From: Roseococcus suduntuyensis | Lineage (GTDB): Bacteria > Pseudomonadota > Alphaproteobacteria > Acetobacterales > Acetobacteraceae | Direction: 5' to 3' | Length of the DNA: 64,000 nt | Assembly: GCF_014196305.1 (NCBI RefSeq) | Contig: NZ_JACIDJ010000002.1 | Span: forward strand, 310,001 to 374,000 | In this document: positions 31,096 through 50,046 of the stretch, piece after piece | Numbering within the stretch: the stretch's first letter is position 1 | How the letters are laid out: each line of letters begins with the position of its first letter | Translations under genes and position numbers: made by a program | The notes under the pieces: model-generated | Seen by the model: only the letters and a program-made list of their open reading frames with translations | Told to the model about the DNA's origin: nothing | Database searches by the model: none

Positions 31096-31170
31096 TCCGG
31101 CGTGGCGCAGCGGTAGCGCAGCGGACTGTTAATCCGTTGGTCGTAGGTTCGAATCCTACCGCCGGAGCCA
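31096..31170 (+). tRNA. tRNA-Asn (GTT), integration target of the island
   Basis: Acceptor TCCGGCG pairs with CGCCGGA; anticodon loop CTGTTAA reads GTT; T arm GTAGG/CCTAC around TTCGAAT; discriminator G; CCA encoded. Its last 16 nt plus 9 nt beyond recur at 50022-50046, so this gene is the attachment target of the adjacent genomic island. The tRNA itself remains intact. Confidence 0.97.
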
Positions 31171-31179
31171 TCATGCCAG
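31155..31179 (+). repeat. attL: tRNA-Asn 3'-end copy of island attachment repeat
   Basis: It begins CCTACCGCCGGAGCCA (T-stem 3' strand through CCA) and continues 9 nt past the tRNA. It differs from the 50022 copy at one base only (A at 31173 versus G at 50040). Divergence is complete on both outer sides. Confidence 0.82.
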
Positions 31180-31568
31180 GTTTTCTGCGGGTTTGCAGCC
31201 CGCCCTTCTCCCAGCCCACAAGTCGAGGCTCTGTTGCCGGCCTGGCTCATACGCGGCCGCGGATGTGTCAGTTGACCGGGTGCGTGCCATGAATGGAGCG
31301 GTTGGCGTTCTGCCGGCTCCTCGGCTGCCGCGTACGGGGCAAGCTGATCGCGCCCACGGGAGCACACTGCGTGTGATCAAGGCGAGTGGGTGGTCGTGAC
31401 CCCCGACCGGCTCGGGCACGCGGCTCCCGCCGGGAGAGCGACCGTCCGCCAGCCGAAGGCTCGAAGGCCACGCCGGGCCACTGCCTTGCTCCGACCCGCG
31501 GGGCAGCGATAGCGTTCCAGCCCGCGCCATCATGCGGAAGCGACGCATCGCAGCTCCAGGGGCCGACC
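31180..31568. other. gene-poor left end of the island
   Basis: Nearly 390 nt between tRNA-Asn and the GST gene. Open frames on both strands are short, Arg/Pro-rich and resemble no family. A short GCGGG/CCCGC hairpin at 31187-31203 could help end the tRNA transcript. An integrase would normally sit here; none is recognisable, even as fragments. Confidence 0.6.
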
Positions 31569-32228
31569 ATGATCCTCTACGACACGCGCCGCTCGGGAAA
31601 TGCCTGGAAGGTCCGGCTGCTGGCGGGGTTCCTGGGCCTGCCGCTCCGGCGCCGGACGCTGTCGATAGACCGGGGCGATCTGCGCGATCCGGGCTTCCTG
31701 CAGAAATTCCCGTTCGGGCAGGTGCCCGCGCTCGAGCTGGAGGATGGCCGCCTCCTCGCGGAATCCGCCGCCAGCCTGCAGTTCCTGGCGCGGGACACGC
31801 CCTGGTGGCCCACCAACCCCTTCGCCCAGGCGCAGGCGCTCGCCTGGATGTCCTTCGAGCAGGAGCGGCATATGCCACCGCTGGCCCAGCTCCGGCTGCG
31901 CCTGGCGCTGCACCGGGATGCCGACCCGGGCGAGCCGCGGATCCTGTCCTGGTCGGCACAGGCGCGCCATGCCCTGGCCCTGCTGGAACGCCAACTCGCC
32001 GGCGCCGGACCCTCGGGATGGCTCATCACGGCCGACCACCCCAGCATCGCCGACCTGGCGCTCTACCCCTACACGCGCTTCGCGCCGATGGGCGGCATCT
32101 CGCTCGATGCCTATCCCGCCACGAACGCCTGGGTGGACCGCATCCGGCAGTGGCCGGGCTACCAGCCGCTGTTTCCCGGCCAGCCCGACATGGACTTCGC
32201 CACCAGCGAGGCGGAGCTTCCCGCGTAG
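31569..32228 (+). CDS. glutathione S-transferase family protein
   Basis: 219 residues. A thioredoxin-like N-domain starts MILYDTRRSGNAWKVRLLAG, with the cis-Pro GQVPALE and the glutathione-contacting ESAASLQFLA. The C-terminal helical domain contains the conserved N-capping box region HPSIADLALYPYTRFA. It conjugates or reduces substrates with glutathione in the cytosol; the substrate is unknown. First gene inside the island. The ATG at 31569 marks the family-typical N-terminus; the frame is open further upstream but lacks homology-like sequence. Confidence 0.88.
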   Translation: MILYDTRRSGNAWKVRLLAGFLGLPLRRRTLSIDRGDLRDPGFLQKFPFGQVPALELEDGRLLAESAASLQFLARDTPWWPTNPFAQAQALAWMSFEQERHMPPLAQLRLRLALHRDADPGEPRILSWSAQARHALALLERQLAGAGPSGWLITADHPSIADLALYPYTRFAPMGGISLDAYPATNAWVDRIRQWPGYQPLFPGQPDMDFATSEAELPA

Positions 32229-32352
32229 CGCCACGCTGGATGGACAGTCAGAGGCGGAGGATGACGCCAGGCGGCGCCAATTGGCGCAGGCGCTGCCCCC
32301 GGGCTATGCTGGGCTTGCAAGACAAGCGCCAGAACAAGGCCCAGGACACGCC

Positions 32353-33306
32353 ATGCCCAAGCACCTTTCCAGTCTCGCCCTGGCGCTGTTCGTCGCACTC
32401 ACCTGCACCGCCGCGGCCCAGCCGGCCATCGAGCGCCCTCTGGTCATCGCCCATCGCGGCGCCAGCCAGTATCTGCCGGAGCACACGATGGAGGCCTATC
32501 GCCTCGCCATCCGCCAGGGCGCCGATTTCATCGAGCCCGACCTGCTGCTGACCGCGGATGGCATCGCGGTGGCGCGGCATGACCGCGCCCTGGCGCTGAC
32601 CACGAACATCGCCGCCCACCCCACCCTGCCGAGCAACATCGACCAGATCACCTTCGAACAGCTGCGCGGCCTGCAGGCCACCTCGCGCGGGGGCGCCGCC
32701 TATGCGCCGCTTGGGGCCGGCCCCACGGGCCTGTTGGTGCCGAGCTTCGCCGAGGTGCTGGACGAGTTGCGCGCGCTCCACGCCTCCACCGGGCGCATCG
32801 TGGGCGTCTATCCGGAGGTGAAGACGATCGGCGGGGGTCTCAACACCTACAACCGCGCCCTGGCGGATGCCATGCTGGCCGAGCTCGCGCATCCCCGCCA
32901 TGGCGGGCTGTTCGACGGAAGCCGCGGCAACGTCATCCTGCAATCCTTCGACCCCGAGGTGGTGGCCTATCTCGGGCGCGGATCATCGCTGCCGGTGGTG
33001 CAGCTCTCCCCGCAATGCCCGTCCGAGGCCGATACCGCGGCGATCGCCGCGCGTGCGGATGGCGTCGGCATGCAGGCGGCCCGGGCAAATGCGGAGTGCC
33101 TGCACCGGCTGCGGGCGGCGGGTCTGTTCGTGCATGTCTACACCCTCTCCAACGCCAACCCGGACTTGCACGCCCTGATGTTCCGCAACGGCGTGGATGG
33201 GGTGTTTACGAACGCGCCCGACACGGCGATCGCCCAGCGCGAGCAGGCGCTGCCCGGTGTCCCGCCGCGGGAGTGGATCGCCCCGGTGCGGCGCCGCCGC
33301 GACTGA
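32353..33306 (+). CDS. periplasmic glycerophosphodiester phosphodiesterase (GlpQ-like)
   Basis: 317 residues. The signal peptide (1 to about 22, LTCTAAAQ) is followed by VIAHRGASQYLPEHTMEAY, DFIEPDLLLTADG and the catalytic His of VARHDRALALTT; later YPEVKTIG and the C-terminal GVDGVFTNAPDTA. Long GlpQ-type enzymes of this kind release glycerol-3-phosphate from glycerophosphodiesters in the periplasm. It differs clearly from the short cytosolic GDPD at 13949. It lies 124 nt after the GST gene, inside the island. Confidence 0.92.
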   Translation: MPKHLSSLALALFVALTCTAAAQPAIERPLVIAHRGASQYLPEHTMEAYRLAIRQGADFIEPDLLLTADGIAVARHDRALALTTNIAAHPTLPSNIDQITFEQLRGLQATSRGGAAYAPLGAGPTGLLVPSFAEVLDELRALHASTGRIVGVYPEVKTIGGGLNTYNRALADAMLAELAHPRHGGLFDGSRGNVILQSFDPEVVAYLGRGSSLPVVQLSPQCPSEADTAAIAARADGVGMQAARANAECLHRLRAAGLFVHVYTLSNANPDLHALMFRNGVDGVFTNAPDTAIAQREQALPGVPPREWIAPVRRRRD

Positions 33307-33404
33307 TACTGTGGCGCGGCAGCCCCGCCAAAGCCGCTGCACAGCATCAGCGCGACGAACGGGTCCTTCAAGCCGCAACACTCGGACGGAGTTGCACCTC
33401 GCAG

Positions 33405-33825
33405 ATGCTGACCGTGCGGGTGCCGCTGGCGGCCCGGAAGCAGCGGGGCGGGCGGAAGCTGGTGCTGACGCCGGTCAGCACCACGAACCGGGGCTCCTCG
33501 GCTGCGGACATCACGTTGGTGAAGGCATTGGCCCGGGCGTTCCGGTGGCGGCGCATGATGGAGGCGGGGCGCTATGGCACAATCGACGAACTGGCGGCCG
33601 CAGAGATGATCAACTCGTCCTACGTGTCCCGCTTGCCGCGCCTGACGCTGCTGGCAGCCGGAGATCGTGGAGGCCATCCTGGACGGGCGGCAACCTGAGG
33701 GGATGACGCTGCCGGCGCTGATGGAGCCGTTACCGCTGCGCTGGAACAAGCAGCTAGATTACAGTTTCGCCACGGCGGCCACACCTCCACCGGTCAGGCC
33801 GCGACTCATGCCACCCCTGCCATGA
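33405..33825 (+). pseudogene. frameshifted recombinase-associated small protein
   Basis: Frame one reads LTVRVPLAARKQRGGRKLVL, LVKALARAFRWRRMMEAGRY and MINSSYVSRLPRLTLLA. One extra base near 33656 then shifts it, and the continuation PEIVEAILDGRQPEGMTLPA is in another frame to a TGA at 33823-33825. From memory, intact homologues of this roughly 130-residue protein sit directly downstream of serine recombinases in alphaproteobacterial mobile regions. No recombinase remains here. I take it as a decayed relic of the machinery that moved or rearranged the island. Confidence 0.65.
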
Positions 33826-34163: not shown

Positions 34164-35615
34164 TCAGCCCCCTTCTGGATAATTTCGGAAATCCAGCCCC
34201 GTGGATCGTGTGGCGCGCTGCGTCAGGCTCTCCATTGCGGCGTTGGTGCCGTCCACGATGCGGCCCTCATCGGCGCTCAGCAGCCGGCCATCGGCCACCA
34301 CCACGCGTCCCGCCACCACGGTCAACTTGGCGCTGCTGTCGGCCCCGCACATTAGCAGCGCGCCCAGCGGGTCCAGCATCGCCCCGGCATAGGCGGCGCG
34401 CCGCAGGTCGAAGGCCGCGATATCGGCCGCCATGCCGGGCGCGAGGTGGCCGAGCTCCGGCCGGTTCAGAACGCCGGCTGCCACCCGCGTGCACATCAGC
34501 AGCAGGTCGTAGGGCTTCAGCCAGTCGCGCAGCGGCACCGTCTCCGCCCCCGCATTCGTGCGGTGGTAGAGCAGGCCCAGCCGCATGTCGCCGAGCATCG
34601 AGCCGTCATCATTGCTGGCGCCGCCATCGATGCCGATGGTGACCGCAATGCCGGCCTGGCGCATCGCGGCGATGCGCGGCACCGGGTAGCCGAGGCGGAC
34701 GGCCGTGCGGGGACAATGCGCCACGCCGCAGCCGGCCGCACCCAGCCCCGCAATCTCGGCGTCGTCAAGCGAGACGCTGTGCGCGAACCAGCTACGCGGC
34801 GTCAGCCAGCCCACGCTGCGCAGGAAATCCACTGTCTCCATCCCGTTATGCTGGCGACAGAGCGCGCGCTCGATCTCGCGCGGAAGGAAGTGGGCGTGCA
34901 GGCCCAGATCGTTGGCGGCTGCCATCTCGCCGAAGCGGCGCATCATTTCCGGCATGGCGTAGGTGATCACGGTGGGCCCGAGGTCGAGCCGAAGCATGGA
35001 GTGGCGCGAGGCATCGTGGAACCGGGCGAGATCACGCTCGATGCGTGGAAACAATGTCTCGGCCTTGTCGAGCATTGCCTCCATCTTCTCGCCCATGATC
35101 GGCCTGAGCCGCGTGGCGAGGTCGCCTTCGATGGTGGGCATGCAGCTGCGAACCAGGTGTAGCCGCAGGCCGAGCTCGCGCGCCGCGCCGATCTCGGCCT
35201 CCATCATCTCGCTTCCCGCGCCAGGCAGTAGGTAGGAGTGGTCCACCGAGGTGGTCGCGCCGGTCAGCAGCATCTCGGCACCCGCGGCAAGCGTCGCCCA
35301 GTGCAGGCAGTCCGCGTCCAGTTCGGACCACAGCGGATACATGCCGAACAGCCATTCCAGCGTGACGGCACGCTGCGCATGTGGCGTGGCGCGCGTCACC
35401 TGCTGGAAGAAGTGGTGATGCATGTTGATCAGGCCGGGCAGCACGATGCACCCCGCCATCTCCCGGACGTCATCGGCGTCCGGGCAGGGACAGGGCTCGG
35501 CGCCCAGCGCCACCATCACGCCATCCTCGCAGCGCAGCCACGCATCGCGGAGCACCTGGTCCCGGTCATCGCAGGTGTAGAGCCACCCGATATTGCGCAG
35601 CAGCAGCGATGGCAT
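34164..35615 (-). CDS. amidohydrolase, 8-oxoguanine deaminase/chlorohydrolase type (unit 1)
   Basis: 483 residues, amidohydrolase superfamily. The metal site uses LPGLINMHHHFFQQ, HAHF, and SWFAHSVSLDD. The catalytic Asp is in IGIDGGASNDDGSMLGDMRL. This pattern, including GATTSVDHSYLLP, resembles 8-oxoguanine deaminase and s-triazine hydrolases such as AtzB, so a deaminase or dechlorinase acting on an N-heterocycle is likely. The ATG at 35615 follows AAAGGAGC. It is divergent from the polyamine-type importer with a shared promoter region. Exact substrate unknown. Confidence 0.85.
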   Translation of the reverse strand: MPSLLLRNIGWLYTCDDRDQVLRDAWLRCEDGVMVALGAEPCPCPDADDVREMAGCIVLPGLINMHHHFFQQVTRATPHAQRAVTLEWLFGMYPLWSELDADCLHWATLAAGAEMLLTGATTSVDHSYLLPGAGSEMMEAEIGAARELGLRLHLVRSCMPTIEGDLATRLRPIMGEKMEAMLDKAETLFPRIERDLARFHDASRHSMLRLDLGPTVITYAMPEMMRRFGEMAAANDLGLHAHFLPREIERALCRQHNGMETVDFLRSVGWLTPRSWFAHSVSLDDAEIAGLGAAGCGVAHCPRTAVRLGYPVPRIAAMRQAGIAVTIGIDGGASNDDGSMLGDMRLGLLYHRTNAGAETVPLRDWLKPYDLLLMCTRVAAGVLNRPELGHLAPGMAADIAAFDLRRAAYAGAMLDPLGALLMCGADSSAKLTVVAGRVVVADGRLLSADEGRIVDGTNAAMESLTQRATRSTGLDFRNYPEGG

Positions 35616-35653
35616 GAAATGCTCCTTTGGAATGCAATTCGTGCACAATTACG

Positions 35654-35674
35654 GCAGATAGGACGGTATCTGCA
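35654..35674. promoter_or_regulatory. operator-like inverted repeat between unit-1 divergent genes
   Basis: GCAGATA (35654-35660) and TATCTGC (35667-35673) are a perfect 7-bp inverted repeat with a 6-nt spacer. It is centred in the 140-nt gap between the amidohydrolase and the solute-binding protein gene. The right arm lies in GTATCTGCA, which recurs at 43239-43247. This is a typical size for a dimeric regulator site; no regulator gene is nearby. Confidence 0.5.
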
Positions 35675-35755
35675 CAGCGACCATGCAGGTTGAGCTTGCC
35701 ACTCCCCCGGGGCGGCGTCCAATATCCTCGGCGTATGGCGAATGGGAAAAGACTG

Positions 35756-36772
35756 ATGACGGGATCCATGGGGCGACGCACGGTGCTGCTGGGGGCAGGC
35801 GCGCTGGCGGCGCCGGCGGTGCTGGCCCAGGAACTGCCCGTGCTGCGCGTCACCCATTTCGGCGGGCCCTACAACGCGCTCACCTCCGTCATCGCCGAGC
35901 CCTTCGCCGCCGCGCGGCTCGGGCGCGTGGTGTACGAGACGGAGAACTCCGTCACCGCGCTGACCAAGCTGCAGGCCCAGCGGGAGGCACCGCCCTTCGA
36001 CATCGTGATGCTCTCGCGCGGATTCACAGGGCGTGTGGGTGGGGCGGGCTTTCTCTCGCCGCTCGACCCCGCGCGGAGCGACCTGGTGGATGGCGCGATC
36101 GCGCCGCGCAACTGGGGGGCGGCGATGCTGATCGACGGCATCGACATCATGTACGACCGCACCAAGGTCACGACCCCGATCGAAAGCTGGCTCGACCTCT
36201 GGCGGCCGGACCTGCGGGGCCTCGTCACGATGCCCTCCGCCTCCCTGCCGGTGTATTTTGTGGTAATGCAGATCGCCCGCGCCCTGGGCGGCGACCCCAC
36301 GCAGCCCGCCGCGATCGACGCCGCGTTTGCCAAGCTGCGCGAGATCAAGCCGAACATCCGCACCTTCTACAGCGACCCGGTGCAGGGCTCGCAGATGATC
36401 GAGCGCGGCGAGGTGGCGGCCGCCATCCAGTTCGCCGGGCGCATCGCGCCGGTGATGCGCGGCAACCCCAACATCGTCCGCGCCTCGCCGCGCGAGGGTG
36501 TGGTGGGCGCGCCCTACGACCTTTGCCTGGTCAACAACGGCCGTAACCGCGAGGCCGCGATTGCCTACATCGACTTCTGCCTGGCCGAGCCGCAGCAATC
36601 CGCCCTGGCCGCGCGGCTGCTGGTGGCGCCCTCCCATCGCCGCGCCACGGTGCCGGAGGCGGCGCAGAACTTCCTCGTGCCGCTCGACAAAGTGTGGTTC
36701 CCCGATGAAGAATTCGCCGCCAGCCGGGCCGCCGAATGGTCGCGCCGGTGGCAGCGCGAGGTGCAGTCCTAG
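35756..36772 (+). CDS. ABC importer solute-binding protein, polyamine/iron type (unit 1)
   Basis: About 338 residues. The twin-arginine-like signal GRRTVLLGAGALAAPAVLA leads to a mature start ELPVLRVTHFGGPYNAL. The fold is of the spermidine/putrescine-binding (PotD-like) group, with FDIVMLSRG, LIDGIDIMYDRTKV and a C-terminal YIDFCLAEPQQSALA. It delivers substrate to the permeases encoded downstream. Starts at 35735, 35756 and 35768 are all in frame; none has a strong ribosome site. Confidence 0.85.
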   Translation: MTGSMGRRTVLLGAGALAAPAVLAQELPVLRVTHFGGPYNALTSVIAEPFAAARLGRVVYETENSVTALTKLQAQREAPPFDIVMLSRGFTGRVGGAGFLSPLDPARSDLVDGAIAPRNWGAAMLIDGIDIMYDRTKVTTPIESWLDLWRPDLRGLVTMPSASLPVYFVVMQIARALGGDPTQPAAIDAAFAKLREIKPNIRTFYSDPVQGSQMIERGEVAAAIQFAGRIAPVMRGNPNIVRASPREGVVGAPYDLCLVNNGRNREAAIAYIDFCLAEPQQSALAARLLVAPSHRRATVPEAAQNFLVPLDKVWFPDEEFAASRAAEWSRRWQREVQS

Positions 36773-36778
36773 GCGGCG

Positions 36779-37819
36779 ATGCCTCCGCACCTGGAGGTCC
36801 GCGGGCTGGAACGCCGCTTCGGCGCCACGCGGGCCGTCGCGGATTGCAGCTTCTCGCTTGCCCGCGGCGAGGTATTCGCGCTGCTTGGCCCCAGCGGATG
36901 CGGCAAGACCACGCTGCTGAACCTGCTGGCGGGATTTGAACTGCCCGATGCAGGGGAGGTGCTTCTGGACGGCGTCTCGATCGGCGACCAGCCGGCGCAC
37001 CGGCGCGGCATCGGAGTGGTGTTCCAAAGCTATGCGCTGTTCCCGCACATGACGGTCGCGAGCAACATCGCCTATGGACTGAAGCGGCTACGCGGGGCGG
37101 AGCGTGACGCGCGCGTGGCCGAATGCGTCGCGCTGCTAAAGCTCGAGGGGCTGGAGGGCCGCTATCCTGCGGCGCTGAGCGGCGGGCAGAAACAGAGAGT
37201 GGCGGTCGCGCGCGCGCTGGCGCCCCGGCCGGCCCTCCTCCTGCTCGACGAGGCGTTCAGCGCCCTGGACCGCAACCTGCGCGAGGCCACGCAGGTCGAG
37301 CTTTCGCTGCTGCTGCGGCGTCTCGGCATAACCACCATCCTGGTCACGCATGACCAGCGCGAGGCCTTCTCGCTGGCCGACCGCATTGCGGTGATGGAGG
37401 GCGGGCGGATCGTCCAGCAGGGGCCGGCGCGGGAGGTCTATGGCCAGCCGGTCTCGGCCTTCGTGCACGGGTTCCTCGGGACGGCCAACACGGCACCTGG
37501 CCGGGTGGCCGGCGGAGTGGCGCGGATCGAGGGCGGCATCGCCTTCCCCACACCCGAGCGGCGAGACGGACCCATCATGGCACGGCTCCGCAGCGAGGAT
37601 GTGCGGCTTTCCCCGATCCCCACGCCGGTGCATGGGGACGCGCCCGGCACCGTGGCGCTCGCCACCTTCATGGGCACGGCGGAACGCTATGTGGTGGAGC
37701 TGGCCGGCCAGCGCTGGGTGGTGGATGCCGCGGCCGACGCGCCTGTTCTGACCTTGGGTCAATCGGTCTTCCTGGAGTTCGACCCTGCGCGCTGCCACAT
37801 CACCGCCGAGGGCGCGTGA
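36779..37819 (+). CDS. ABC importer ATPase, PotA/FbpC-like (unit 1)
   Basis: 346 residues. Walker A GPSGCGKTT, Q-loop VFQSYALFPHMTV, signature LSGGQKQRVAVARAL, Walker B LLLDEAFSALD, and H-loop LVTHDQREAF. The C-terminal 110 residues form the TOBE-type regulatory domain of importer ATPases. In the Walker B/D-loop region, DEAFSALD replaces the usual DEPLSALD. It lies 6 nt after the binding-protein gene and overlaps the next permease by 4 nt. Confidence 0.92.
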   Translation: MPPHLEVRGLERRFGATRAVADCSFSLARGEVFALLGPSGCGKTTLLNLLAGFELPDAGEVLLDGVSIGDQPAHRRGIGVVFQSYALFPHMTVASNIAYGLKRLRGAERDARVAECVALLKLEGLEGRYPAALSGGQKQRVAVARALAPRPALLLLDEAFSALDRNLREATQVELSLLLRRLGITTILVTHDQREAFSLADRIAVMEGGRIVQQGPAREVYGQPVSAFVHGFLGTANTAPGRVAGGVARIEGGIAFPTPERRDGPIMARLRSEDVRLSPIPTPVHGDAPGTVALATFMGTAERYVVELAGQRWVVDAAADAPVLTLGQSVFLEFDPARCHITAEGA

Positions 37820-38676
37820 GGCTGCGCGCCCTCACCCCATGGCTGTGGCTGGCGCCGGCGCTGCTGGTGCTGGTGCCCTTCTTCGCCCTGCCGCTCGGTT
37901 TGCTGCTACGCAACAGCCTGGGCAGGGATGAGCCGAGCGGCGGCGTCGAGCCGGTGTTCACGCTGGAAAACTATGGCTCCGTCCTGACTGACCCCTTTTA
38001 CGCCACTGTCTTCCTCAACACCGCAGGGATGGCGGCGGGGGTGGGGCTCGCAGCGCTCGTGGTGGGTTTTCCCTATGCCTACGCGGTCGTTCGCTGCTCC
38101 GCCCGGTGGCGCGGCGTGCTGCTATGGGCCGTCTACACGCCGCTGCTGGTGAGCGTGATCGTGCGGGTGCTGGGCTGGATCGCCATAACCGCGGATGGTG
38201 GGCTCATCAACGCTGCGCTGCTGGCGACGGGCCTAAGCAGCCGGCCCCTACGCATCTTGTACGAGGTGGAGGGCATGGGCGTCGGCATGCTGCACCGCTA
38301 CCTGCCGCTCATGGTGCTGCCGCTGGTGAATGCCCTGCAGCGCGTGCCGTGGGACCTGCTGCGTGCCTCTTCCAGTCTCGGTGCGGGTCCTGGGGAGGGC
38401 ATCCTGCGCATCATCCTGCCGCTATCGCTGCCCGGCGCGGTCATCGGGTTTCAGCTCGTCTTCGCCAGTGTGTTAAGCGATTACGTGCTGCCCACGCTGA
38501 TGGGCACCACGCGCTTCCGCATGCTTGCGCCCGCGCTCTATGACGAGGCCGTGACCAACCTCGCCACCGCCACGGCCGCCGCGATGGCGGTCTGTGCCCT
38601 GCTTCTCGTCGTGCTGATGCTGGGGCTGGGCAACCTCGCGGTGCGCCGCCTGGCGCCCTGGGCGCGCACGTTGTGA
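37816..38676 (+). CDS. ABC importer permease, PotB-like (unit 1)
   Basis: 286 residues with six hydrophobic segments. The EAA loop that contacts the ATPase is LRASSSLGAGPGEGILRIILPLSLPG (about 180-205, in pieces). It starts at GTG overlapping the ATPase stop by 4 nt. It forms the inner-membrane channel with the next gene product. Confidence 0.9.
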   Translation: MRLRALTPWLWLAPALLVLVPFFALPLGLLLRNSLGRDEPSGGVEPVFTLENYGSVLTDPFYATVFLNTAGMAAGVGLAALVVGFPYAYAVVRCSARWRGVLLWAVYTPLLVSVIVRVLGWIAITADGGLINAALLATGLSSRPLRILYEVEGMGVGMLHRYLPLMVLPLVNALQRVPWDLLRASSSLGAGPGEGILRIILPLSLPGAVIGFQLVFASVLSDYVLPTLMGTTRFRMLAPALYDEAVTNLATATAAAMAVCALLLVVLMLGLGNLAVRRLAPWARTL

Positions 38677-39464
38677 GGAGCGCCTGGCTCCTGGGCGCAT
38701 TCGTGGCACTGGTGCTGCTGTTCCTTCTAGGCCCCTTGCTCATCGCGATCGCCGTCGCCTTCAGCAGCGGCGAGCGCATCGGATTCCCGCCGCCCGGCCT
38801 CAGCCTGCGCTGGTTCGCCGATGCGCTCGGCAATGAACAGTTCCGAGATGCCGCGGCGCGCAGCCTGTGGGTGGCGCTCGCGGCGACTGTGATTTCGGTG
38901 GTCGCGGGGACCGGCGCCGCCGTGGCGCTAACCCAAGGGCAGGGCCGCTTCGCCGGCCGTGCCTGGGTGCAGGCGTTCATCATGCTGCCGCTGGCCATCC
39001 CCGGCATCGTGCTGGGGCTGGCGCTGCTGCCCACCGCAATCATGCTGGGGCTGCGCCCGGGCTTCTGGGCAACCGTGCTCGGCCATGCGGTGGTCGGCAT
39101 CCCCTACAGCGCCTACCTCGTGCTCGCCGCCTTCGCGCAATATGACCCGGCGCTGGACCGTGCCTCGGCCTCGCTTGGCGTGGGGCCATGGCGCAGCTTC
39201 TTGCGCGTAACCTTGCCGCTGATCAGGCCGGGAATCGTTTCCGCCGCAATTTGCACCTTTTTACTCTCCTTCGATAATGTGGCGCTCTCGCTGTTCCTTT
39301 CGCGCGGGGACACGCTGCCGCTCCGGCTGATGCAGCACATCCAATTTACCGCGACGCCGGCGGTGGCGGCGGCCTCAGTCATGCTAGTGCTGCTGTCATT
39401 GGGGGCGATGCTGATGCTGGGGCGCGTGCTGCGCGGGCGCGGGACAATCCGCATAGCGGGATAA
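38673..39464 (+). CDS. ABC importer permease, PotC-like (unit 1)
   Basis: 263 residues, six transmembrane segments. The EAA motif is LDRASASLGVGPWRSFLRVT followed by LPLIRPGIVSA, then a C-terminal SFDNVALSLFLSRGDTLPLR, typical of PotC/CysW partners. GTG start overlapping the preceding permease by 4 nt. Last gene of the unit-1 importer operon; a 147-nt gap with moderate GC follows before unit 2. Confidence 0.9.
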   Translation: MRSAWLLGAFVALVLLFLLGPLLIAIAVAFSSGERIGFPPPGLSLRWFADALGNEQFRDAAARSLWVALAATVISVVAGTGAAVALTQGQGRFAGRAWVQAFIMLPLAIPGIVLGLALLPTAIMLGLRPGFWATVLGHAVVGIPYSAYLVLAAFAQYDPALDRASASLGVGPWRSFLRVTLPLIRPGIVSAAICTFLLSFDNVALSLFLSRGDTLPLRLMQHIQFTATPAVAAASVMLVLLSLGAMLMLGRVLRGRGTIRIAG

Positions 39465-41885: not shown

Positions 41886-43224
41886 GGCCTTCGACCTGCT
41901 GATCGAGGGCATCACCCTCGTCCCCGACGCCTTCGCCGCGCCCATCGAGGACGCGGCACTCGGCATCACCGGCGGGCGCTTCGCTTTCGTCGGCCGCGCG
42001 GCGGACCTGCCCTTGGGCGCCACCGCCACAAGGCGGTTGCGTCTGGCGGGGCACCTGGTGGTGCCGGGGCTGGTCAACGTCCACACCCACACCATCCTGA
42101 GCATGGTGCGCGGCGTGGCGGAGGACATGGGCTTTGCGCCCGCCTACACGCCCGGCGTGCCGCAGGGCCATATGGTGCGCGAGGACGAGGCGGTAGCGCT
42201 GGCGCGGCTGGGCGCGCTGGAGGCGATGCTGGCGGGCTCCACCCTCATCAATGACACCTATGTCCACACCGACCTTACCCTGCCCGCGATGGCCGATCTG
42301 GGCCTGCGTGTCTACTCCTGCAACCGCATCCACGACGTGGATTTCTCCGGCGTCTCGCGCGGCCGTTGGACGCATGAGCGCGGGATCGGCGAGCAGACGC
42401 TGAACCAGGCGCTGGGCCTCGCGCAGCGCTTCCATGGCAAGCCAGATGCGCGCACCGGCGTGCAGCTGGCGGCGCACGCGCCGGACACCTGCTCCACCCC
42501 CTTCCTGCGCGATGTGGCGCAGGCGGCGCAGCGCACCGGGCTGCGCGTGCAGACGCATGTCAGCCAGAGCAAGGTGGAGGTCGCGCGCATCCGTGAGCGC
42601 GACGGCTGCACCCCGCCCGAATTGCTGGAGAGCGTGGGACTGCTGAACGACCGCCTGGTCGCCGCGCATTGCATCCACCTGACCGACAGTGACATCGCCC
42701 GTATCGGCGCCGCGGGCGTCCATGTTGCGCACATCCCCAAGGGCAATGCGACGGGCGGCACCATCGCGCCCACGCGGCGCTTGGTGGAGGCCGGTGCGCG
42801 CCTCACGCTCGCCACTGACAACATGCACGCCGACATGGTCGAGGTGCTGCGTTGGGCGCTGTGCATGGGCCGGGTGCAGACAGGCGCGGTGGAGGATGGC
42901 TGGCAGCCCGAGCACATGCTGCACGCCGCCACCGCCGGCGGCGCCGCGGCCATGGGCATGGAGGCGGAGATCGGCCGCATCGCGCCGGGCTTCCGCGCCG
43001 ATTGCGTGGCGCTGGACCTGCGCCGCCCGCATCTGGTGCCGCACAATGACCCTCTGGGAACCATGGTGCACACCGGCATGGGGCGCGACGTCAGCCATGT
43101 GGTCGTGGAGGGCGAGGTCGTGGTCGAGGACGGAAGACCCACACGCTGCGACATGGAGGAGGTGATGCGGGCAGGCGGGGATGCCGCCGCCGCCTTGTGG
43201 GCGCGTGCCCGCGCCAGCATCTGA
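41875..43224 (+). CDS. amidohydrolase, TRZ/ATZ-like deaminase (unit 2)
   Basis: 449 residues. Metal-binding VPGLVNVHTHTILSM near residue 63, QTHVSQSK (third His), AAHCIHLTDSDI, and the Asp-containing LATDNMHADMVEVLRWAL. This is a variant of the usual chlorohydrolase motif. The C-terminus has the composite beta sandwich VVVEGEVVVEDGRP. Predicted cytosolic hydrolase of a C-N bond in a heterocycle or amidine. Its start is 11 nt inside the ATPase gene, so it is made together with importer unit 2. Confidence 0.85.
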   Translation: MTAEAFDLLIEGITLVPDAFAAPIEDAALGITGGRFAFVGRAADLPLGATATRRLRLAGHLVVPGLVNVHTHTILSMVRGVAEDMGFAPAYTPGVPQGHMVREDEAVALARLGALEAMLAGSTLINDTYVHTDLTLPAMADLGLRVYSCNRIHDVDFSGVSRGRWTHERGIGEQTLNQALGLAQRFHGKPDARTGVQLAAHAPDTCSTPFLRDVAQAAQRTGLRVQTHVSQSKVEVARIRERDGCTPPELLESVGLLNDRLVAAHCIHLTDSDIARIGAAGVHVAHIPKGNATGGTIAPTRRLVEAGARLTLATDNMHADMVEVLRWALCMGRVQTGAVEDGWQPEHMLHAATAGGAAAMGMEAEIGRIAPGFRADCVALDLRRPHLVPHNDPLGTMVHTGMGRDVSHVVVEGEVVVEDGRPTRCDMEEVMRAGGDAAAALWARARASI

Positions 43225-43238
43225 CGTCGCGGCATCCC

Positions 43239-43305: not shown

Positions 43306-43347
43306 GTGCATTTTTCTACTTTTGGCCTTGATACGATCAGGCAGGGC

Positions 43348-44274
43348 GTGAACTACTTTGGCCATGGATCCTTCGCGCCATCGGCCAGCTCCAGGCTCCC
43401 GACATTGAGTGCCGCAAGCACCACCTTCGCCGCACAACCGCGGCGCGGCTTTCGCGGCTTCTACGTGCTCATGCTCGCACCGGCGCTGGTGCTCCTACTT
43501 GGTCTCTACGTGCTGCCGCTGTTCGGCGTGGTGCTCATCAGCGTGACGGAGCCGCGCCCAGGGCTCGGCAACTACGAACTGCTGCTGACCAGCGCCTCGG
43601 TACAGCGGGCGCTCTGGACCACCGGGCGCATCGCGGTGCTGACCACACTCATCACGCTCATCCTCGGGTACATCGTCGCCTATGCCATGCGCATGGCGTC
43701 GGAGGGCGCGCAGCGCTGGATGCTGTTCTGCGTGCTGTTCCCCTTCTGGATCTCCGTGCTGGTGCGCAGCTTCGCCTGGATCACTCTCCTGCGCAGCGAG
43801 GGCGTCCTCAACACCGCGCTGCGCGGCACAGGCCTGATCGAGGAGCCGCTGATGCTCGTCCGCAACGAGACGGGCGTGCTCATCGGCATGGTCCACGCCA
43901 TGCTGCCCTACGCCATCCTCACCCTCTACGCGAACATGCGCGGCATCGACCTCAGGCTGATGACGGCGGCGCGCGGCCTGGGCGCAGGACCGGTTGCGGC
44001 CTTCCTTCGCGTGTTCCTGCCGATGACGCGGCCAGGCATCCTCGGCGCCACCGTCCTCGTCTTCATCATCTCGCTCGGCTTCTACGTGACGCCCGCCATC
44101 CTGGGCGGCGGCCGCACGCTGATGATCGCGGAATACGTCGCGCTGCAGATCAACGAGACGCTGCGCTGGGGGCTGGGCACCATGCTCGCCACCACGCTTG
44201 GTATCAGCGTCATGGGCATCATGTGGCTCATGTCGCGGGTGCTGGACGTGAAGCGCCTGTTCGGGCCCGCCTGA
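43348..44274 (+). CDS. ABC importer permease, PotB-like (unit 3)
   Basis: About 308 residues from GTG 43348; a GTG at 43306 is in frame but has no ribosome site. The N-terminal 35 residues are polar, then six transmembrane segments start at MLAPALVLLLGLYVLPLFG. EAA loop: LMTAARGLGAGPVAAFLRVF then LPMTRPGILGA; also YVTPAILGGGRTLMIAEYVA, typical of PotB homologues. Its stop overlaps the next ATG by one base. Confidence 0.88.
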   Translation: MNYFGHGSFAPSASSRLPTLSAASTTFAAQPRRGFRGFYVLMLAPALVLLLGLYVLPLFGVVLISVTEPRPGLGNYELLLTSASVQRALWTTGRIAVLTTLITLILGYIVAYAMRMASEGAQRWMLFCVLFPFWISVLVRSFAWITLLRSEGVLNTALRGTGLIEEPLMLVRNETGVLIGMVHAMLPYAILTLYANMRGIDLRLMTAARGLGAGPVAAFLRVFLPMTRPGILGATVLVFIISLGFYVTPAILGGGRTLMIAEYVALQINETLRWGLGTMLATTLGISVMGIMWLMSRVLDVKRLFGPA

Positions 44275-45074
44275 TGGCGCAGGATGGCGGGGCGCTGCGC
44301 CGGGTGCTGGCCGGGTTGATCCTGGCCTTCCTGGTGCTGCCGGCCTTCGTCGTGTTCCCGGTCTCGCTCACGCCCAACCGCTACCTGTCGCTGCCCAGCG
44401 GCGGCGTGTCCTGGCAGCATTGGCAAACCCTGTTCACAGACCCGGTGTGGCTAAGTGGCATCAGGGAAAGCGTGCTGATCGCGTCCCTGTCCACCGCCCT
44501 GGCGCTGGCGGCTGGAACGGCTTGCGCCATCGGCTGCTGGCGCCTGGGCTCGCGCCTGACCGACATGGTGCGCTCGGCCATGATCCTGCCGCTGATGATC
44601 CCGACCATCGTCTACGCGCTGGGCATCTACCGCTTCTACGTGGAGTTGGACCTCATCGGCACCATGCTGGGCGTCATCCTCGCCCATGCGGTGACCGGCC
44701 TGCCCTATGTGGTGCTGACGGTGACGGCCTCGCTCGCCAACCTCGACCCGGCGCTGGAGCGCGCGGCGCGCAGCCTGGGCGCGAGCGTGCCACAGACGCT
44801 CACGCGGGTGATCGTGCCGAACATCATCCCGGGCATCCTCTCGGGCGGCATCTTCGCCTTCATCCATTCCTGGGACGAGCTGATCATCGTCATCTTCATC
44901 GGCGGGCGGGAGCTTTTCACGCTGCCGCAGCTGATCTGGGACGGGATCAACGAGAACCTCGACCCCGCCATCGCCGCCGTCGCCTCCGCCCTCATCCTCT
45001 TCACGCTGGCAGTGCTGTTGGTGGAGCTCGGCCTGCGCCGCCGCCGCCAGTTCCGCGCCGCGCGCGACACCTGA
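44274..45074 (+). CDS. ABC importer permease, PotC-like (unit 3)
   Basis: 266 residues, six membrane segments. The EAA loop is LERAARSLGASVPQTLTRVI then VPNIIPGILSG, followed by FIHSWDELIIVIFIGGREL, the PotC-type C-terminus. The TGATG overlap with the first permease points to one operon. It pairs with the ATPase encoded about 3.8 kb downstream. Confidence 0.92.
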   Translation: MAQDGGALRRVLAGLILAFLVLPAFVVFPVSLTPNRYLSLPSGGVSWQHWQTLFTDPVWLSGIRESVLIASLSTALALAAGTACAIGCWRLGSRLTDMVRSAMILPLMIPTIVYALGIYRFYVELDLIGTMLGVILAHAVTGLPYVVLTVTASLANLDPALERAARSLGASVPQTLTRVIVPNIIPGILSGGIFAFIHSWDELIIVIFIGGRELFTLPQLIWDGINENLDPAIAAVASALILFTLAVLLVELGLRRRRQFRAARDT

Positions 45075-45096
45075 TCCCCCAAGGAGAGACCCCGCG

Positions 45097-46221
45097 ATGA
45101 CCCAGGAGCCCGCCCAGGACCACCTCGACGCACTGGACCACTTCCGCGAGCGCACGGAAGGCCGTGTCATCGACCGCCGAGGCTTCCTTGCTATCTGCGC
45201 GGCCATCGGCATGCCCGCGGGGTTGGCGCGGCTGACGCCCGCCGCCGCCCAGGGCACGAACCGCGAGCTGGTGCTGGTGAACTGGGGCGGTGATGCGGTG
45301 CGCGGCATGCGCGCGCATTTCGTCGAGCCCTACATCCGCGCCAACCCCGGCCGCCGCGTGGCGATCGACGGCACCGGCCCTTCCTCCGGCCGCATCCGGC
45401 TGATGGTGCAGAGCGGCCGCGTCACCTGGGACGTGATGGACCGCAACCTGCACACTGCGCTGGAACTCGGCCGCGAGAACATCCTGGAGGACATCGACTA
45501 CGCCATCGTGGACCGCTCCAAGGTGCGGCCGGAGCATGCCAACCAGTGGGGCATCGGCAATTACACCTATGCCCATGTGCTGACCTACAACACGCGCCGC
45601 TGGGGCGGGCGCGTGCCCACCACCTGGAAGGACGTATGGGATCTGCGCGGCTTCCCCGGCCGCCGCGCCTTCCGCCGCACCATCGACGGCGCGCTGGAGG
45701 CGGCGCTGATGGCCGATGGCGTGGCGAAGGAGAGCATCTATCCCATCGACATGAAGCGCGCGCTGGACGGCCACAAGGCCATCAAGAACCAGACCATCTA
45801 CTACAATGCCATCGCCGAGGGGCAGGCGGCCTTCCGCGACAACGAGGTGCAGCTGGGCCTGCTGCTCAATACGCGGTCCTGGCCACTGAAGAACGACACC
45901 AACGGCGTGTGCGACTACACCTTCAACGAGGGCATCGTCTGGGTTGCGGCCTGGATGGTGCCGAAGGGCGCGCAAGGTGGCCGCGCCATCTGGGAATTCA
46001 TCGCCTCCACGCAGGAACCGCAGCGCCAGATCGAGCTGCTGCGCAGCAACGGCTACGGCCCGGTGAACCCCGCCGCCTCCGCGGCCCTGCCCGAGGATCT
46101 GCGCCCGCTCGACCCCGGCCGCGAAGAGAACTACGCGCGCATGCTGCCCGGCGGCGTCGCCTGGTACGCCGAGCACGCGACCAACGCCCTGCAGCAATAT
46201 CTCGACGCCATCTCGTCCTGA
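45097..46221 (+). CDS. ABC importer solute-binding protein, polyamine type (unit 3)
   Basis: 374 residues. A long N-region with twin-arginine motif (IDRRGFLAICAAIGMPAGLA) suggests Tat export. The mature part has ELVLVNWGGDAVRGM, SSGRIRLMVQSGRVTWDVMD and YNTRRWGGRVPTTWKDVWDL, as in PotD-like proteins. AAGGAGA lies 9 nt upstream of the ATG. It binds the substrate for unit 3; the same operon encodes a dioxygenase and an amidohydrolase that may act on it. Confidence 0.9.
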   Translation: MTQEPAQDHLDALDHFRERTEGRVIDRRGFLAICAAIGMPAGLARLTPAAAQGTNRELVLVNWGGDAVRGMRAHFVEPYIRANPGRRVAIDGTGPSSGRIRLMVQSGRVTWDVMDRNLHTALELGRENILEDIDYAIVDRSKVRPEHANQWGIGNYTYAHVLTYNTRRWGGRVPTTWKDVWDLRGFPGRRAFRRTIDGALEAALMADGVAKESIYPIDMKRALDGHKAIKNQTIYYNAIAEGQAAFRDNEVQLGLLLNTRSWPLKNDTNGVCDYTFNEGIVWVAAWMVPKGAQGGRAIWEFIASTQEPQRQIELLRSNGYGPVNPAASAALPEDLRPLDPGREENYARMLPGGVAWYAEHATNALQQYLDAISS

Positions 46222-46249
46222 ACCCCACCCGCAAAGAGGAGGAACCGCC

Positions 46250-47341
46250 ATGTCATCCAACGTCACCGAGGCCGCATCCGGGCCCGCCGCGCCCGCCTTC
46301 GCGCGCTGGGCCACGCCCAATGAACTGCCGGTGATCGACTTCGCCCCGCTGGCCGGCGGCAACGCCTCGGCCATCGAGGCGGTGGCGCGCGAGGTGGATG
46401 CCGCCTGCCGCGAGATCGGCTTCCTGACGGTGGTGAACCACCCGGTGCCGGCCGCGCAGATCAAGGACATCTTCCATCAGGCGGCGCGCTTCTTCGCCCT
46501 GCCCGAGGCCGAGAAGATGAAGAGCTGGATGGGCAATTCCCGCAACTTCCGCGGCTTCCTGCCGATGGACCAGGGGGCCGACCAGCGCAACTTCGCGGGC
46601 GCCGCCGTGCCCGGCTTCCAGCAGCACATCACCGGCGAGAAGCTGAAGGCGCGCAAGCCCAACCGCAACGAGGCCTTCCAGGTTGCGGCCGAGCCCGCGC
46701 CCGACGATGCGGACGTGGGCGCCGGCACGCCGCTGCACGGCCCCAACCAGTGGCCGGCCGACCTGCCGGGCTTCAAGGAGGCGGTGCTGGGCTACCACAC
46801 CACCATGGTGGGCTTCGCGGGGCTGATGGCGAGCCTGTTTGCGCGCGGCCTGGGCATGCCGGCCGACTACTTCGCGCAGTTCTACAAGAAGCCGCTGATC
46901 CAGCTGCGCCTGCTTCACTATTTGCCGCACAAGGAGGACATCGACGCGCTGGAGGGCGGCGACAGCCGTGCCCATTGCGACGCCGGCGGCTTCACCATGT
47001 TGCAGCAGGACGATGTGGGCGGCCTCGAGATCAAGAGCCGCTCGGGCGAATGGCTCGTGGTGCCACCGGTGGAGAACAGCTTCGTCATCAACATCGGTGA
47101 CAGCATGAAGATGTGGACCAACCACCGCTACGCCTCCACGCTGCACCGCGTGGTGAACCGCTATGGGCGCGAGCGCTTCTCGGTCGGTGTCTTCGCCAAC
47201 CCGGACTACCACACCATCATCCGCCCGCTGCCCACCTGCGTGGACGCCGACAACCCGCCGAAGTTCGACGAGATGAAGTCGGGTGAGGCGCTGCGCTTCC
47301 TCTACAGCCGCGTCTGGCCCTCCGCGCCCGCGCCGAACTGA
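46250..47341 (+). CDS. isopenicillin N synthase-like Fe(II)/2-oxoglutarate dioxygenase (unit 3)
   Basis: 363 residues. N-terminal DIOX_N domain (LPVIDFAPLAGG, REIGFLTVVNHPVP). The jelly-roll core has the iron ligands in AHCDAGGFTMLQQD (His, Asp) and STLHRVVNRY (distal His), then the co-substrate RFSVGVF (RxS motif). Enzymes of this group hydroxylate or oxidatively cleave small molecules using Fe(II) and O2. AGGAGGAA lies upstream of the ATG. In an operon with an importer and a deaminase, it probably oxidises the imported compound. Confidence 0.9.
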   Translation: MSSNVTEAASGPAAPAFARWATPNELPVIDFAPLAGGNASAIEAVAREVDAACREIGFLTVVNHPVPAAQIKDIFHQAARFFALPEAEKMKSWMGNSRNFRGFLPMDQGADQRNFAGAAVPGFQQHITGEKLKARKPNRNEAFQVAAEPAPDDADVGAGTPLHGPNQWPADLPGFKEAVLGYHTTMVGFAGLMASLFARGLGMPADYFAQFYKKPLIQLRLLHYLPHKEDIDALEGGDSRAHCDAGGFTMLQQDDVGGLEIKSRSGEWLVVPPVENSFVINIGDSMKMWTNHRYASTLHRVVNRYGRERFSVGVFANPDYHTIIRPLPTCVDADNPPKFDEMKSGEALRFLYSRVWPSAPAPN

Positions 47342-47351
47342 AGGACCGTCC

Positions 47352-48893
47352 ATGACCACCACGCTGATCCGCGGCAAATGGGTGATCTGCCGCGCGCTCG
47401 ACCGGGACCGCGCCGAGATCATTGAGCACGGCGCGGTGCTGGTCCGCGACGGCATGGTGGTGGAGGTCGGCGGCTTCGAGGACCTCGTGCGCCGCCACCC
47501 GCAGGCGGACATGCTGGGGTCAGACCAGCACGTGGTGATGCCCGGCTTCGTGAACGCGCACCACCACGTCGGGCTGACGCCGCTGCAGCTGGGTTCGCCC
47601 GACCTGCCGCTGGAGCTGTGGTTCGGCAGCCGGCTCGCCGCGCGCCCGGTGGACCTGCACCTGGACACGCTCTACTCCGCCTTCGAGATGGTGGAGAGCG
47701 GCATCACCACCGTTCAGCACCTGCAAGGCCGCCTGCCGCCGCCGCTGGACAGCATGGTGGCCGGTGCCTCGGACACGCTGCGCGCCTACCAGGACATCGG
47801 CATGCGCGTCTCCTACGCGCACACCATCCGCGACCAGAACCTGCTGGTCTACGAGGCCGACCAGGATTTTCTCGCACGCCTCCCGCCCGACCTGGCGCGC
47901 GACCTGGCGCCGATGCTGGCGCGGCAGCTCGTGCCACTCGAAGACAACTTTTCTCTGTTTGACGCGCTACGCGCGAAGTTCGCCGATGATCCGCGCATTT
48001 CCATCCAGGTCTCGCCGGCCAACCTGCACTGGTGCAGCGACGCGGCACTCGAACGCGTGCGGCAGGTCTGCGAGGCGACCGGCGTGCCGCACCACATTCA
48101 TTTGCTGGAGACGCAGTATCAGAAGGAATACGCCCACAGGCGGGCAGGCATGGGTGCCCTGGCGCAGCTCGATCGCGCGGGCCTGCTCGGGCCACACTGC
48201 ACGCTGGGTCATGGCGTCTGGCTGACCGAGGCGGAGGTGGAGCGCGTGGCCGAGACGGGCACGCGCATCTGCCACAACTGCTCCTCCAACCTGCGGCTTC
48301 GCTCGGGCGTAGCCGCGCTGAACCATTGGGAAAAGCGCGGCGTGCGCGTCGCCATCGGCATTGACGAGGCGGGGCTCAACGACGACCGCGACATGCTGGT
48401 GGAGATGCGCATGGTGCTGCGCCAGCACCGCACGCCCGGCATGGACCCGGAGGACGTCCCCACGCCGGCCCAGGTCTTCCGCATGGCCACCGAGCACGGC
48501 GCGGCCACCACCGGCTTCGGTGAGAGCATCGGCCGCCTGGTGCCGGGCGCCCGGGCGGATGTGGTGCTGCTCGACTGGCGCCAGCTGGCCTACCCTTTCC
48601 TGGACGAGGACACGGATGTGCTCTCCGCCGTGGTCCAGCGCGCCAAGACGGGCGGCGTGGAGACCGTGATGGTGGAGGGCGAGGTCATCTACCGCGACCG
48701 CCGCTTCACCCGCGTGGACAAGGATGCCGCGCTGGCGGAGCTGGCCGCGCGCACGGGCCGCCCGCGCACACCGGAGGAGGAGCTGCGCCGCAGCGTTTCC
48801 CGCCGCGTGGCGCCCTATATGCGCGACTTCTACCGCGGCTATCTGCCCGACGCGGCGCCCACGCCCTTCTACGCCACCAGCGCGCGGAAGTGA
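47352..48893 (+). CDS. amidohydrolase, TRZ/ATZ-like deaminase (unit 3)
   Basis: 513 residues. Metal site: MPGFVNAHHHVGLT, HHIHLLETQYQKEYA, TLGHGVWLTEAEVE; then HNCSSNLRLRSG and the catalytic Asp in AIGIDEAGLNDDRDMLVEMR. This is the standard chlorohydrolase/deaminase pattern. The C-terminal about 60 residues form a longer Arg-rich tail (YMRDFYRGYLPDA). It is 10 nt after the dioxygenase gene. Likely deaminates or dehalogenates the unit-3 substrate or its oxidation product. Confidence 0.86.
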   Translation: MTTTLIRGKWVICRALDRDRAEIIEHGAVLVRDGMVVEVGGFEDLVRRHPQADMLGSDQHVVMPGFVNAHHHVGLTPLQLGSPDLPLELWFGSRLAARPVDLHLDTLYSAFEMVESGITTVQHLQGRLPPPLDSMVAGASDTLRAYQDIGMRVSYAHTIRDQNLLVYEADQDFLARLPPDLARDLAPMLARQLVPLEDNFSLFDALRAKFADDPRISIQVSPANLHWCSDAALERVRQVCEATGVPHHIHLLETQYQKEYAHRRAGMGALAQLDRAGLLGPHCTLGHGVWLTEAEVERVAETGTRICHNCSSNLRLRSGVAALNHWEKRGVRVAIGIDEAGLNDDRDMLVEMRMVLRQHRTPGMDPEDVPTPAQVFRMATEHGAATTGFGESIGRLVPGARADVVLLDWRQLAYPFLDEDTDVLSAVVQRAKTGGVETVMVEGEVIYRDRRFTRVDKDAALAELAARTGRPRTPEEELRRSVSRRVAPYMRDFYRGYLPDAAPTPFYATSARK

Positions 48894-50008
48894 TGCGGAT
48901 GGACATGAACCTTCCGCGCGAAGCCAACGCCACGGCGACCCAGGCCGGCGGCTTGCGCATCAGCGCCGTCAGCAAGAGCTATGGCGCGGTGGAGGTGCTG
49001 CACGATGTCTCGCTCGACGTGCGGCCGGGCAGCTTCGTCACGCTGCTCGGCCCCAGTGGTTCGGGCAAGAGCACGCTGCTGATGTGCATCGCGGGCTTCG
49101 AGGCGGTGGGGCGGGGCGACATCACGCTGGACGGCGCCTCCATCCTGGAACTGCCGCCCGAGCGCCGGGATTTCGGCATGGTGTTCCAGGGTTACGCACT
49201 GTTTCCCCACCTCAGCGTGGCGGAGAACGTGGCCTTTCCCCTCAGCATCCGCGGCATGGGCCGCGCTGAGCGCGAGCGGCGCGTGGCCGACGCCCTGGCC
49301 ATGGTGCGCCTGGAGGGGCTGTCGTCGCGGCTGCCGCGCCAGCTCTCCGGCGGGCAGCAGCAGCGCGTGGCACTGGCGCGCGCCATCGTGTTCTCGCCGC
49401 GGCTGCTGCTGCTGGACGAGCCGCTTTCGGCGCTGGACCGCGGCCTGCGCGCCGAGATGCAGGAGGAGCTGAAGCGGCTGCATGGCGAGCTGGGCCTTTC
49501 CTTCATCTATGTCACGCATGACCAGGAGGAGGCGCTGTTCCTCTCCGATCAGGTCGCCATCCTCAACCATGGCCGCATCCAGCAGATCGGCCCGCCCGAG
49601 GCGCTCTACGCCCGGCCGGTGAACCAGTTCGTCGCGGGCTTCCTGGGGCGCAGCAACCTGCTGCGCCTGCATGGCGAGGTGCGCGCCGGAATGTTCCACA
49701 CAGGGGGGCCGGTGCTGGCGGGAACGGAGATTGCCACGCCGGCGCTGCCGGATGGCGCGCACAGCTTCACCTTCTGCCACCGCCCTGAACGCGCCACGCT
49801 GGCCGCGCCGGGCGGGGGGCCTGGGCTGGAAGGCGTGGTGACCGACGTCGCCTACCACGGCACGACGCTCGACGTGACGGTGCGCCTGCCGGATGGCGCG
49901 TTGTTCCAGGTGGCGTTGCTGAACCGCGGCGCCCGCCCGGTGCAGGGCGACGCGGTGCGTGTGGTGCCGGACCCCGACAGCCTCACGCCACTTGCCGACG
50001 GGGAGTAG
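48893..50008 (+). CDS. ABC importer ATPase, PotA-like (unit 3)
   Basis: 371 residues. Walker [11 protein letters not shown]-loop [13 protein letters not shown], signature [15 protein letters not shown], Walker [17 protein letters not shown]-loop [11 protein letters not shown], and a C-terminal TOBE domain. The ATG at 48893 overlaps the amidohydrolase stop by one base; ATGs at 48899 and 48905 are also in frame. Its permeases are more than 3 kb upstream, so the enzymes sit in the middle of the transporter operon. Last gene of the island, 13 nt before attR. Confidence 0.93.
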
Positions 50009-50021
50009 GGCGGTAACGCGG

Positions 50022-50046
50022 CCTACCGCCGGAGCCATCGTGCCAG
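50022..50046 (+). repeat. attR: second copy of the tRNA-Asn-derived repeat
   Basis: It begins CCTACCGCCGGAGCCATC and matches 31155-31179 at 24 of 25 positions. No tRNA can be folded around it, since upstream sequence is unrelated. It marks the right end of the island. Confidence 0.82.

Follow-up and report, generated by a model that had tools for sequence, protein, structure and literature searches.

In a 64,000-nt window of Roseococcus suduntuyensis (contig NZ_JACIDJ010000002.1, positions 310,001-374,000, assembly GCF_014196305.1), to which all coordinates refer, the segment at 31171-50021 is very likely a genomic island that was put into the 3' end of a tRNA-Asn gene by recombination of the tyrosine-integrase type, that lost its integrase or never carried one, and that holds a cargo of importer and amidohydrolase genes. 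The island is about 18.9 kb long. The element would have entered at the 3' end of tRNA-Asn through site-specific recombination, its own copy of the 3' end would have rebuilt the tRNA, and the displaced copy would have been left at 50022-50046. The integrase may later have been lost, or may never have been part of the element, and the island is now probably fixed. The cargo forms three neighbouring sets, each with an ATP-binding cassette (ABC) importer and a TRZ/ATZ-type amidohydrolase, and one also with a 2-oxoglutarate (2OG) oxygenase. Islands borne by tRNA genes, and a tRNA-Asn(GUU) hotspot in another alphaproteobacterium, are already known; what sets this island apart within its kind is its cargo and the lack of a recognisable integrase.

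The borders are marked by two attachment (att) repeats. A sequence-only reading of the window had claimed that the tRNA-Asn 3' end, extended by 9 nt, recurs with 24 of 25 identical bases, and this was borne out by the tRNA prediction of ARAGORN and by comparison of the repeats. The two copies (31155-31179 and 50022-50046) have the same orientation, and their single difference, A/G, lies in the spacer part of the repeat. In the whole genome (17 contigs, 4,138,894 bases), the 25-mer was found with up to three mismatches at these two places only, as that reading had expected, and the reversed 25-mer, used as a control under the same limit, gave no matches. Chance matches with at most one mismatch are expected at 7.7e-8 per window and about 5e-6 per genome under an order-1 Markov model. 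An intact tRNA gene at one border, paired with a like-oriented piece of its 3' end at the opposite border, as seen here, is a hallmark of tRNA-borne islands.

The empty site is preserved in a relative. A search for the neighbouring PCMT protein across 60 genomes, including that of R. suduntuyensis itself, gave a match in 54, with near-identical proteins (97-98%) in two congeners, G003 and G004. In G004, the parts corresponding to 29198-31179 and 50022-63999 of the window are contiguous and overlap by one 25-bp copy (locus L034, 1957-1981), and the flanks are collinear with those of the window at 92.5-95.4% identity. The tRNA-Asn of G004 is followed directly by the sequence that stands after 50046 in the window, and 49 of the first 60 bases 3' of the right repeat agree, ungapped, with those 3' of the tRNA in G004. 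The left copy, unlike the right copy, does not continue as in this empty site; the left side is foreign. A relative with an empty site and a single att copy is a further hallmark of such islands. Because this empty site is exact, the island is a site-specific insertion and its borders are fixed to the base, so that the island and the exact borders proposed from the letters alone are upheld by the two-copy 25-mer and the comparison with G004.

The single copy in G004 would also be left if the segment were ancestral and G004 had lost the island by recombination between the two 25-bp repeats. This history is very unlikely. In G003, too, the tRNA-Asn end is present in one copy and there is no island at this place, and neither amidohydrolase 1 nor the oxygenase was detected in the five other congeners (G003, G004, G008, G011 and G016) of a sample of 249 genomes of the family. 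Presence with repeated loss is also less economical, and an earlier insertion would still be needed to create the att pair. Judging from these comparisons, insertion in the lineage of the window is the simplest history. The 3' flank of G003 has its own peculiarity: homology to the window resumes at around 51730 (L038, about 2440-2533), and LysR, together with part of the gene region beyond it, is absent after tRNA-Asn, which is a different rearrangement at the same place.

The same tRNA is occupied in other members of the genus. A second copy of the tRNA-Asn 3' end, in the same orientation, within 20 kb and on the same contig, was looked for in 21 genomes of the genus, R. suduntuyensis (G000) included, and was found in four: G000 itself, G006 (2.8 kb), G011 (16.1 kb) and G016 (12.9 kb). 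Four is a lower bound, because several of the assemblies are fragmented. A tyrosine integrase lies between the copies in three of the 20 other genomes (G006, G011 and G016). The integrases of G006 and G011, which are 39% identical, adjoin the distal repeat and have the domains Arm-DNA-bind_3, Phage_int_M and Phage_integrase, and in G016 a DUF6538-Phage_integrase protein, which falls below the E limit (1e-10) of the integrase family search, adjoins the tRNA. On this genome comparison, tRNA-Asn is a shared landing place in the genus. Eight other one-mismatch matches occur elsewhere in the 21 genomes, and most of them are at chance level, because the reversed control gives up to seven per genome and strand; the match at G001:C151, in which the last 16 bases are exact, could be an unplaced island end.

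The congener islands resemble that of the window in site and att core, and the left inner end of the window island is like that of G011. Over the first 60 nt after the tRNA, window and G011 agree at 37 positions in an ungapped comparison (300 pairs compared in all), and among 200,000 random pairs taken from the sequences examined, the highest count was 34 of 60. The match was below the cut-off in local alignment and was brought out by the ungapped comparison. It links the island, by sequence likeness, to an integrase-bearing one. The congener islands differ from that of the window in that an integrase is present and in their other genes, as far as these were scanned (Abi_alpha in G016, a PAS-domain histidine kinase in G011).

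Several further features were observed at this tRNA. The element of G006 (L043, 11035-13876; 2.8 kb) is a very small tRNA-borne element with little recognised beyond the integrase gene, and the 12.9-kb island of G016 (L041, 6439-19368) has its DUF6538-type integrase by the tRNA and, close to its opposite end, the Abi_alpha (abortive infection) gene. One T-stem pair of tRNA-Asn has two forms in the genus, with CCTAC or CCAAC on the 3' side, and in all four islands the second copy carries the letter of the resident tRNA at that position. Likeness over the 60 nt that follow the tRNA is also seen among other species (43 of 60 between G009 and G015, 39 between G014 and G015, 42 between G006 and G019), and loci with similar ends lie downstream of tRNA-Asn in G015 (L042), G009 (L047), G014 (L103) and G012 (L106). 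More than one family of ends is present. A left-end block common to the whole genus was considered and rejected, as a profile built from the left ends of G009, G012, G014 and G015 gave no hit within the inclusion threshold to the left end of the window island (best E 1.2, on the wrong strand), which is matched by the G011 left end only.

The cargo had been described from the letters alone as coherent and accessory, and the Pfam matches agree with this: a glutathione S-transferase (GST), a glycerophosphodiester phosphodiesterase (GDPD), three amidohydrolases, three ABC importers and one 2OG oxygenase are present (Table 1). The importers and amidohydrolases make up three separate modules. In set 1, amidohydrolase 1 is divergent from importer 1, set 2 consists of importer 2 and amidohydrolase 2, and set 3 combines importer 3 with the oxygenase and amidohydrolase 3. 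These three modules, the hotspot shared within the genus and the lack of a detectable integrase go beyond the sequence-only reading.

Table 1. Features of the tRNA-Asn island and its borders (window coordinates).
Feature	Position	Strand	Basis
tRNA-Asn (GTT), integration target, intact	31096..31170	+	ARAGORN
Left att repeat: last 16 nt of the tRNA-Asn 3' end plus 9 nt	31155..31179	+	Whole-genome 25-mer search and G004 comparison
Left inner end, no gene recognised; first 60 nt after the tRNA match the integrase-bearing G011 island	31180..31568		Ungapped comparison
Glutathione S-transferase-like gene, start by eye	31569..32228	+	Pfam GST_N/GST_C on ORF 31386-32225
Glycerophosphodiester phosphodiesterase-like gene, start by Shine-Dalgarno scan	32353..33306	+	Pfam GDPD 1.3e-36 on ORF 31744-33303
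Broken small gene (relic), like the gene after the recombinase in a DUF2924/recombinase cassette	33405..33750	+	Homologues in plasmid records
Amidohydrolase 1	34164..35615	-	Pfam; NCBIfam below cut-off; nearest structures 3hpa, 7ww2
Importer 1 substrate-binding protein, PotD-like below cut-off	35627..36772	+	Pfam, NCBIfam
Importer 1 ATPase with TOBE domain	36779..37819	+	Pfam
Importer 1 permease	37816..38676	+	Pfam
Importer 1 permease	38673..39464	+	Pfam
Importer 2 amino-acid-type substrate-binding protein (SBP_bac_3)	39612..40448	+	Pfam
Importer 2 permease	40465..41118	+	Pfam
Importer 2 ATPase	41112..41885	+	Pfam
Amidohydrolase 2 (TRZ/ATZ type), start by eye	41875..43224	+	Pfam, structure matches
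Importer 3 permease	43306..44274	+	Pfam
Importer 3 permease	44223..45074	+	Pfam
Importer 3 substrate-binding protein	45097..46221	+	Pfam
2-oxoglutarate/Fe(II) oxygenase (DIOX_N and 2OG-FeII_Oxy)	46250..47341	+	Pfam, structure match
Amidohydrolase 3 (TRZ/ATZ type)	47352..48893	+	Pfam, structure matches
Importer 3 ATPase with TOBE domain; 13 bp from stop to right att	48890..50008	+	Pfam
Right att repeat	50022..50046	+	Whole-genome 25-mer search and G004 comparison

The nearest solved relatives of amidohydrolase 1 are 3hpa (amidohydrolase) and 7ww2 (8-oxoguanine deaminase / hydroxydechloroatrazine ethylaminohydrolase), and that of amidohydrolases 2 and 3 is 4f0r (methylthioadenosine/S-adenosylhomocysteine deaminase). 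A specific substrate was sought and given up: the NCBIfam scores shown for the amidohydrolases are all below the curated cut-offs, so that no substrate can be named, the nearest solved structures are mixed, and a literature search on the substrate found nothing related. In alignments judged by eye, the metal-ligand histidines and the aspartate are kept in all three amidohydrolases, and of the three only amidohydrolase 3 retains the glutamate that comes after the third metal-binding histidine; we take these to be functional residues of TRZ/ATZ-type deaminases. The nearest solved relative of the oxygenase is 9ovh, named 'ethylene/succinate-forming enzyme', a name that may be automatic. Most likely, the cargo would enable the host to take up small nitrogen-rich heterocycles, a predicted substrate class, and to deaminate or hydrolyse them, and the three importer-amidohydrolase modules offer a candidate pathway, the substrate of which is directly testable. 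It is doubtful that the island is a purpose-built catabolic element, in which three such modules, one with the 2OG oxygenase, were gathered at the tRNA-Asn hotspot for the uptake and opening of nitrogen-rich heterocycles and which moves, or has moved, by the borrowed integrase of other tRNA-Asn islands.

Two of the modules, sets 2 and 3, are also found as units elsewhere, and the cargo has the patchy distribution that is a hallmark of tRNA-borne islands. Set 3 is present in Roseomonas sp. MO-31 (L054) in the same order (permease, permease, binding protein, 2OG oxygenase, amidohydrolase, ATPase) and with 70-86% identity; the MO-31 locus differs in that no tRNA-Asn repeat core was found in the 14,183 of 18,583 bases scanned and in that modules 1 and 2 were not found there. 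Amidohydrolase 2 occurs in nine of the 249 family genomes, R. suduntuyensis included (E<=1e-120). Five of the eight other loci were opened, and these hold all four genes of set 2 (three loci), three genes with a gap at the place of the ATPase (one) or the amidohydrolase only, at 66% (G003). Amidohydrolase 1 and the oxygenase were found under strict E limits in R. suduntuyensis only (one of 249 family and one of 385 class genomes), in searches that scored part of the first-look candidates in some genomes (for example, 6 of 20 or 4 of 20 for amidohydrolase 1 in R. suduntuyensis) and in samples that do not show MO-31, which has the oxygenase; both are therefore rare but not unique. Weaker homologues, with less than 60% identity, are common on plasmids. 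The island itself was also sought on plasmids and rejected there: 213 plasmid records match it, none covers 80% in one place, and among the 15 matches listed each covers 2% of the island, at ABC transporter genes where annotated.

Homologues of amidohydrolase 3 are present in eight of the 20 other congeners (nine of 21 with R. suduntuyensis; E<=1e-60, 56-87% identical), on contigs other than that of tRNA-Asn or about 1 Mb away from it (G006 and G015). Besides MO-31, amidohydrolase 3 lies near PotABCD-like importer genes like those of the island in seven of 24 named loci, in Bosea and other records of the rhizobia order. On gene order, these neighbourhoods support a predicted import-and-hydrolyse role.

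Several observations weigh against a tRNA-Asn island that was inserted by a tyrosine integrase and that carries deaminating enzymes. No integrase or remnant of one was found: the best tblastn match of the G006, G011 and G016 integrases to the window has an E value of 0.053 and lies outside the island. The right end is without the integrase that is present there in the G006 and G011 islands, and hence the case for a common origin is carried by the left end, which the profile of the four other species' left ends does not recognise. The sole recombination remnant indicates a gene annotated as 'recombinase family protein' rather than a known tyrosine integrase, and the composition of the island differs little from that of the host. 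In addition, the conserved glutamate is replaced in amidohydrolases 1 and 2, and deamination is therefore not assured for these two.

The search for an integrase covered several routes. The three congener integrases gave only chance-level matches in the window, and with these an integrase remnant was rejected as a candidate; no integrase was recognised at the island's place on the contig (C2:341155-360046) in the family search (E<=1e-10), or among the Pfam matches of the scanned island open reading frames. Those Pfam matches also contain no conjugation, relaxase or phage structural genes, the genes by which integrative and conjugative elements or prophages are recognised. The place of the integrase just inside the right repeat is occupied by the last gene of the cargo operon, whose stop codon lies 13 bp before the repeat. 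Since no integrase was found and the last cargo stop lies so close to the repeat, the island is probably immobile, and the integrase may have been lost through a deletion that ended at the repeat.

Both att repeats are kept, and the left end is like that of an integrase-bearing island although no integrase was found inside, as would be expected of a non-autonomous element that was integrated, and is perhaps still movable, by the integrase of a related tRNA-Asn element acting in trans. This is unlikely, as a search of this genome with the G011 integrase gave no match at E<=1e-20, and arm sites could hardly be accommodated on the right side in the 13 bp between the last stop and the repeat. Action in trans by a resident integrase was rejected as well: four of the six integrase-family genes of the genome are near other tRNAs, namely Ala, Thr, Met (2.9 kb away) and Lys, and the remaining two, on contig C1, are taken by us as candidate XerC/XerD genes. 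The four genes (L121, L122, L123 and L124) are tyrosine integrase genes and suggest that other tRNA-borne islands are present in this genome. For the island in the window, insertion by a tyrosine integrase that is now gone, or that was never carried, is preferred.

The sequence-only reading had also spoken of a recombinase-linked relic and of lower-GC filler. A broken gene is present at 33.4-33.75 kb, and no recombinase was found in the island beside it. Its homologues occur in eight plasmid records, and the context was examined in four. In the Agarilytica record, a DUF2924 gene is followed by a gene named 'recombinase family protein', whose end the homologue overlaps; no recombinase is annotated beside the homologues in Bradyrhizobium, where an IS110 transposase lies about 1.5 kb away, and in Paracoccus sp. 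MC1862, and the fourth record is unannotated there. The broken gene thus stands, with its recombinase link seen in one of four plasmid contexts. Lower GC is marked in the stretch adjoining the relic (33751-34163, 58.6%) and only slight over the whole island, at 69.1% compared with 70.7% and 70.2% for the two flanks (p 0.03 on 1.5-kb blocks).

Such a remnant, homologous to the small gene after the recombinase in a plasmid cassette, could mean that the recombinase of this cassette, rather than a tyrosine integrase, inserted the island. This is extremely unlikely: the remnant lies inside the island and not at an end, the three congener integrases at this tRNA are tyrosine integrases, and the repeat is the tRNA 3' end plus 9 nt, with tRNA targets being served by tyrosine integrases according to the Islander paper (PMC4383910). 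Islander-type islands and the window island share an intact tRNA at one border, a displaced, like-oriented fragment at the opposite border and a length within 2-200 kb. Islander, however, demands an integrase gene inside the island (PMC4383910), and none was found here, so an Islander search would miss this island; finders that require an integrase would miss such islands in general.

Literature searches found no paper on a tRNA-Asn island in Roseomonas or Acetobacteraceae, none on point by title and abstract start in a wider search on Roseomonas or Roseococcus and islands, and none on islands without an integrase. The closest known case is in Sinorhizobium meliloti, where tRNA-Asn(GUU), gene 030, is according to PMC11476347 an integration hotspot with att repeats of 27-28 bp, composed of 17-18 bp of the tRNA 3' end and a 10-bp spacer, with point differences in the spacer only, and with islands linked to the integrase of Pseudomonas phage vB_PsyP_3MF5. 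The tRNA is the same as in the window, where the att repeat is 16 + 9 nt with its one A/G difference in the spacer; the window island differs in belonging to another bacterial family, in having no detectable integrase and in its metabolic cargo. The integrase of G016 weakly matches Pseudomonas phage vB_PsyP_3MF5 (E 2e-6 over 41% of its length), and other phages match it better.

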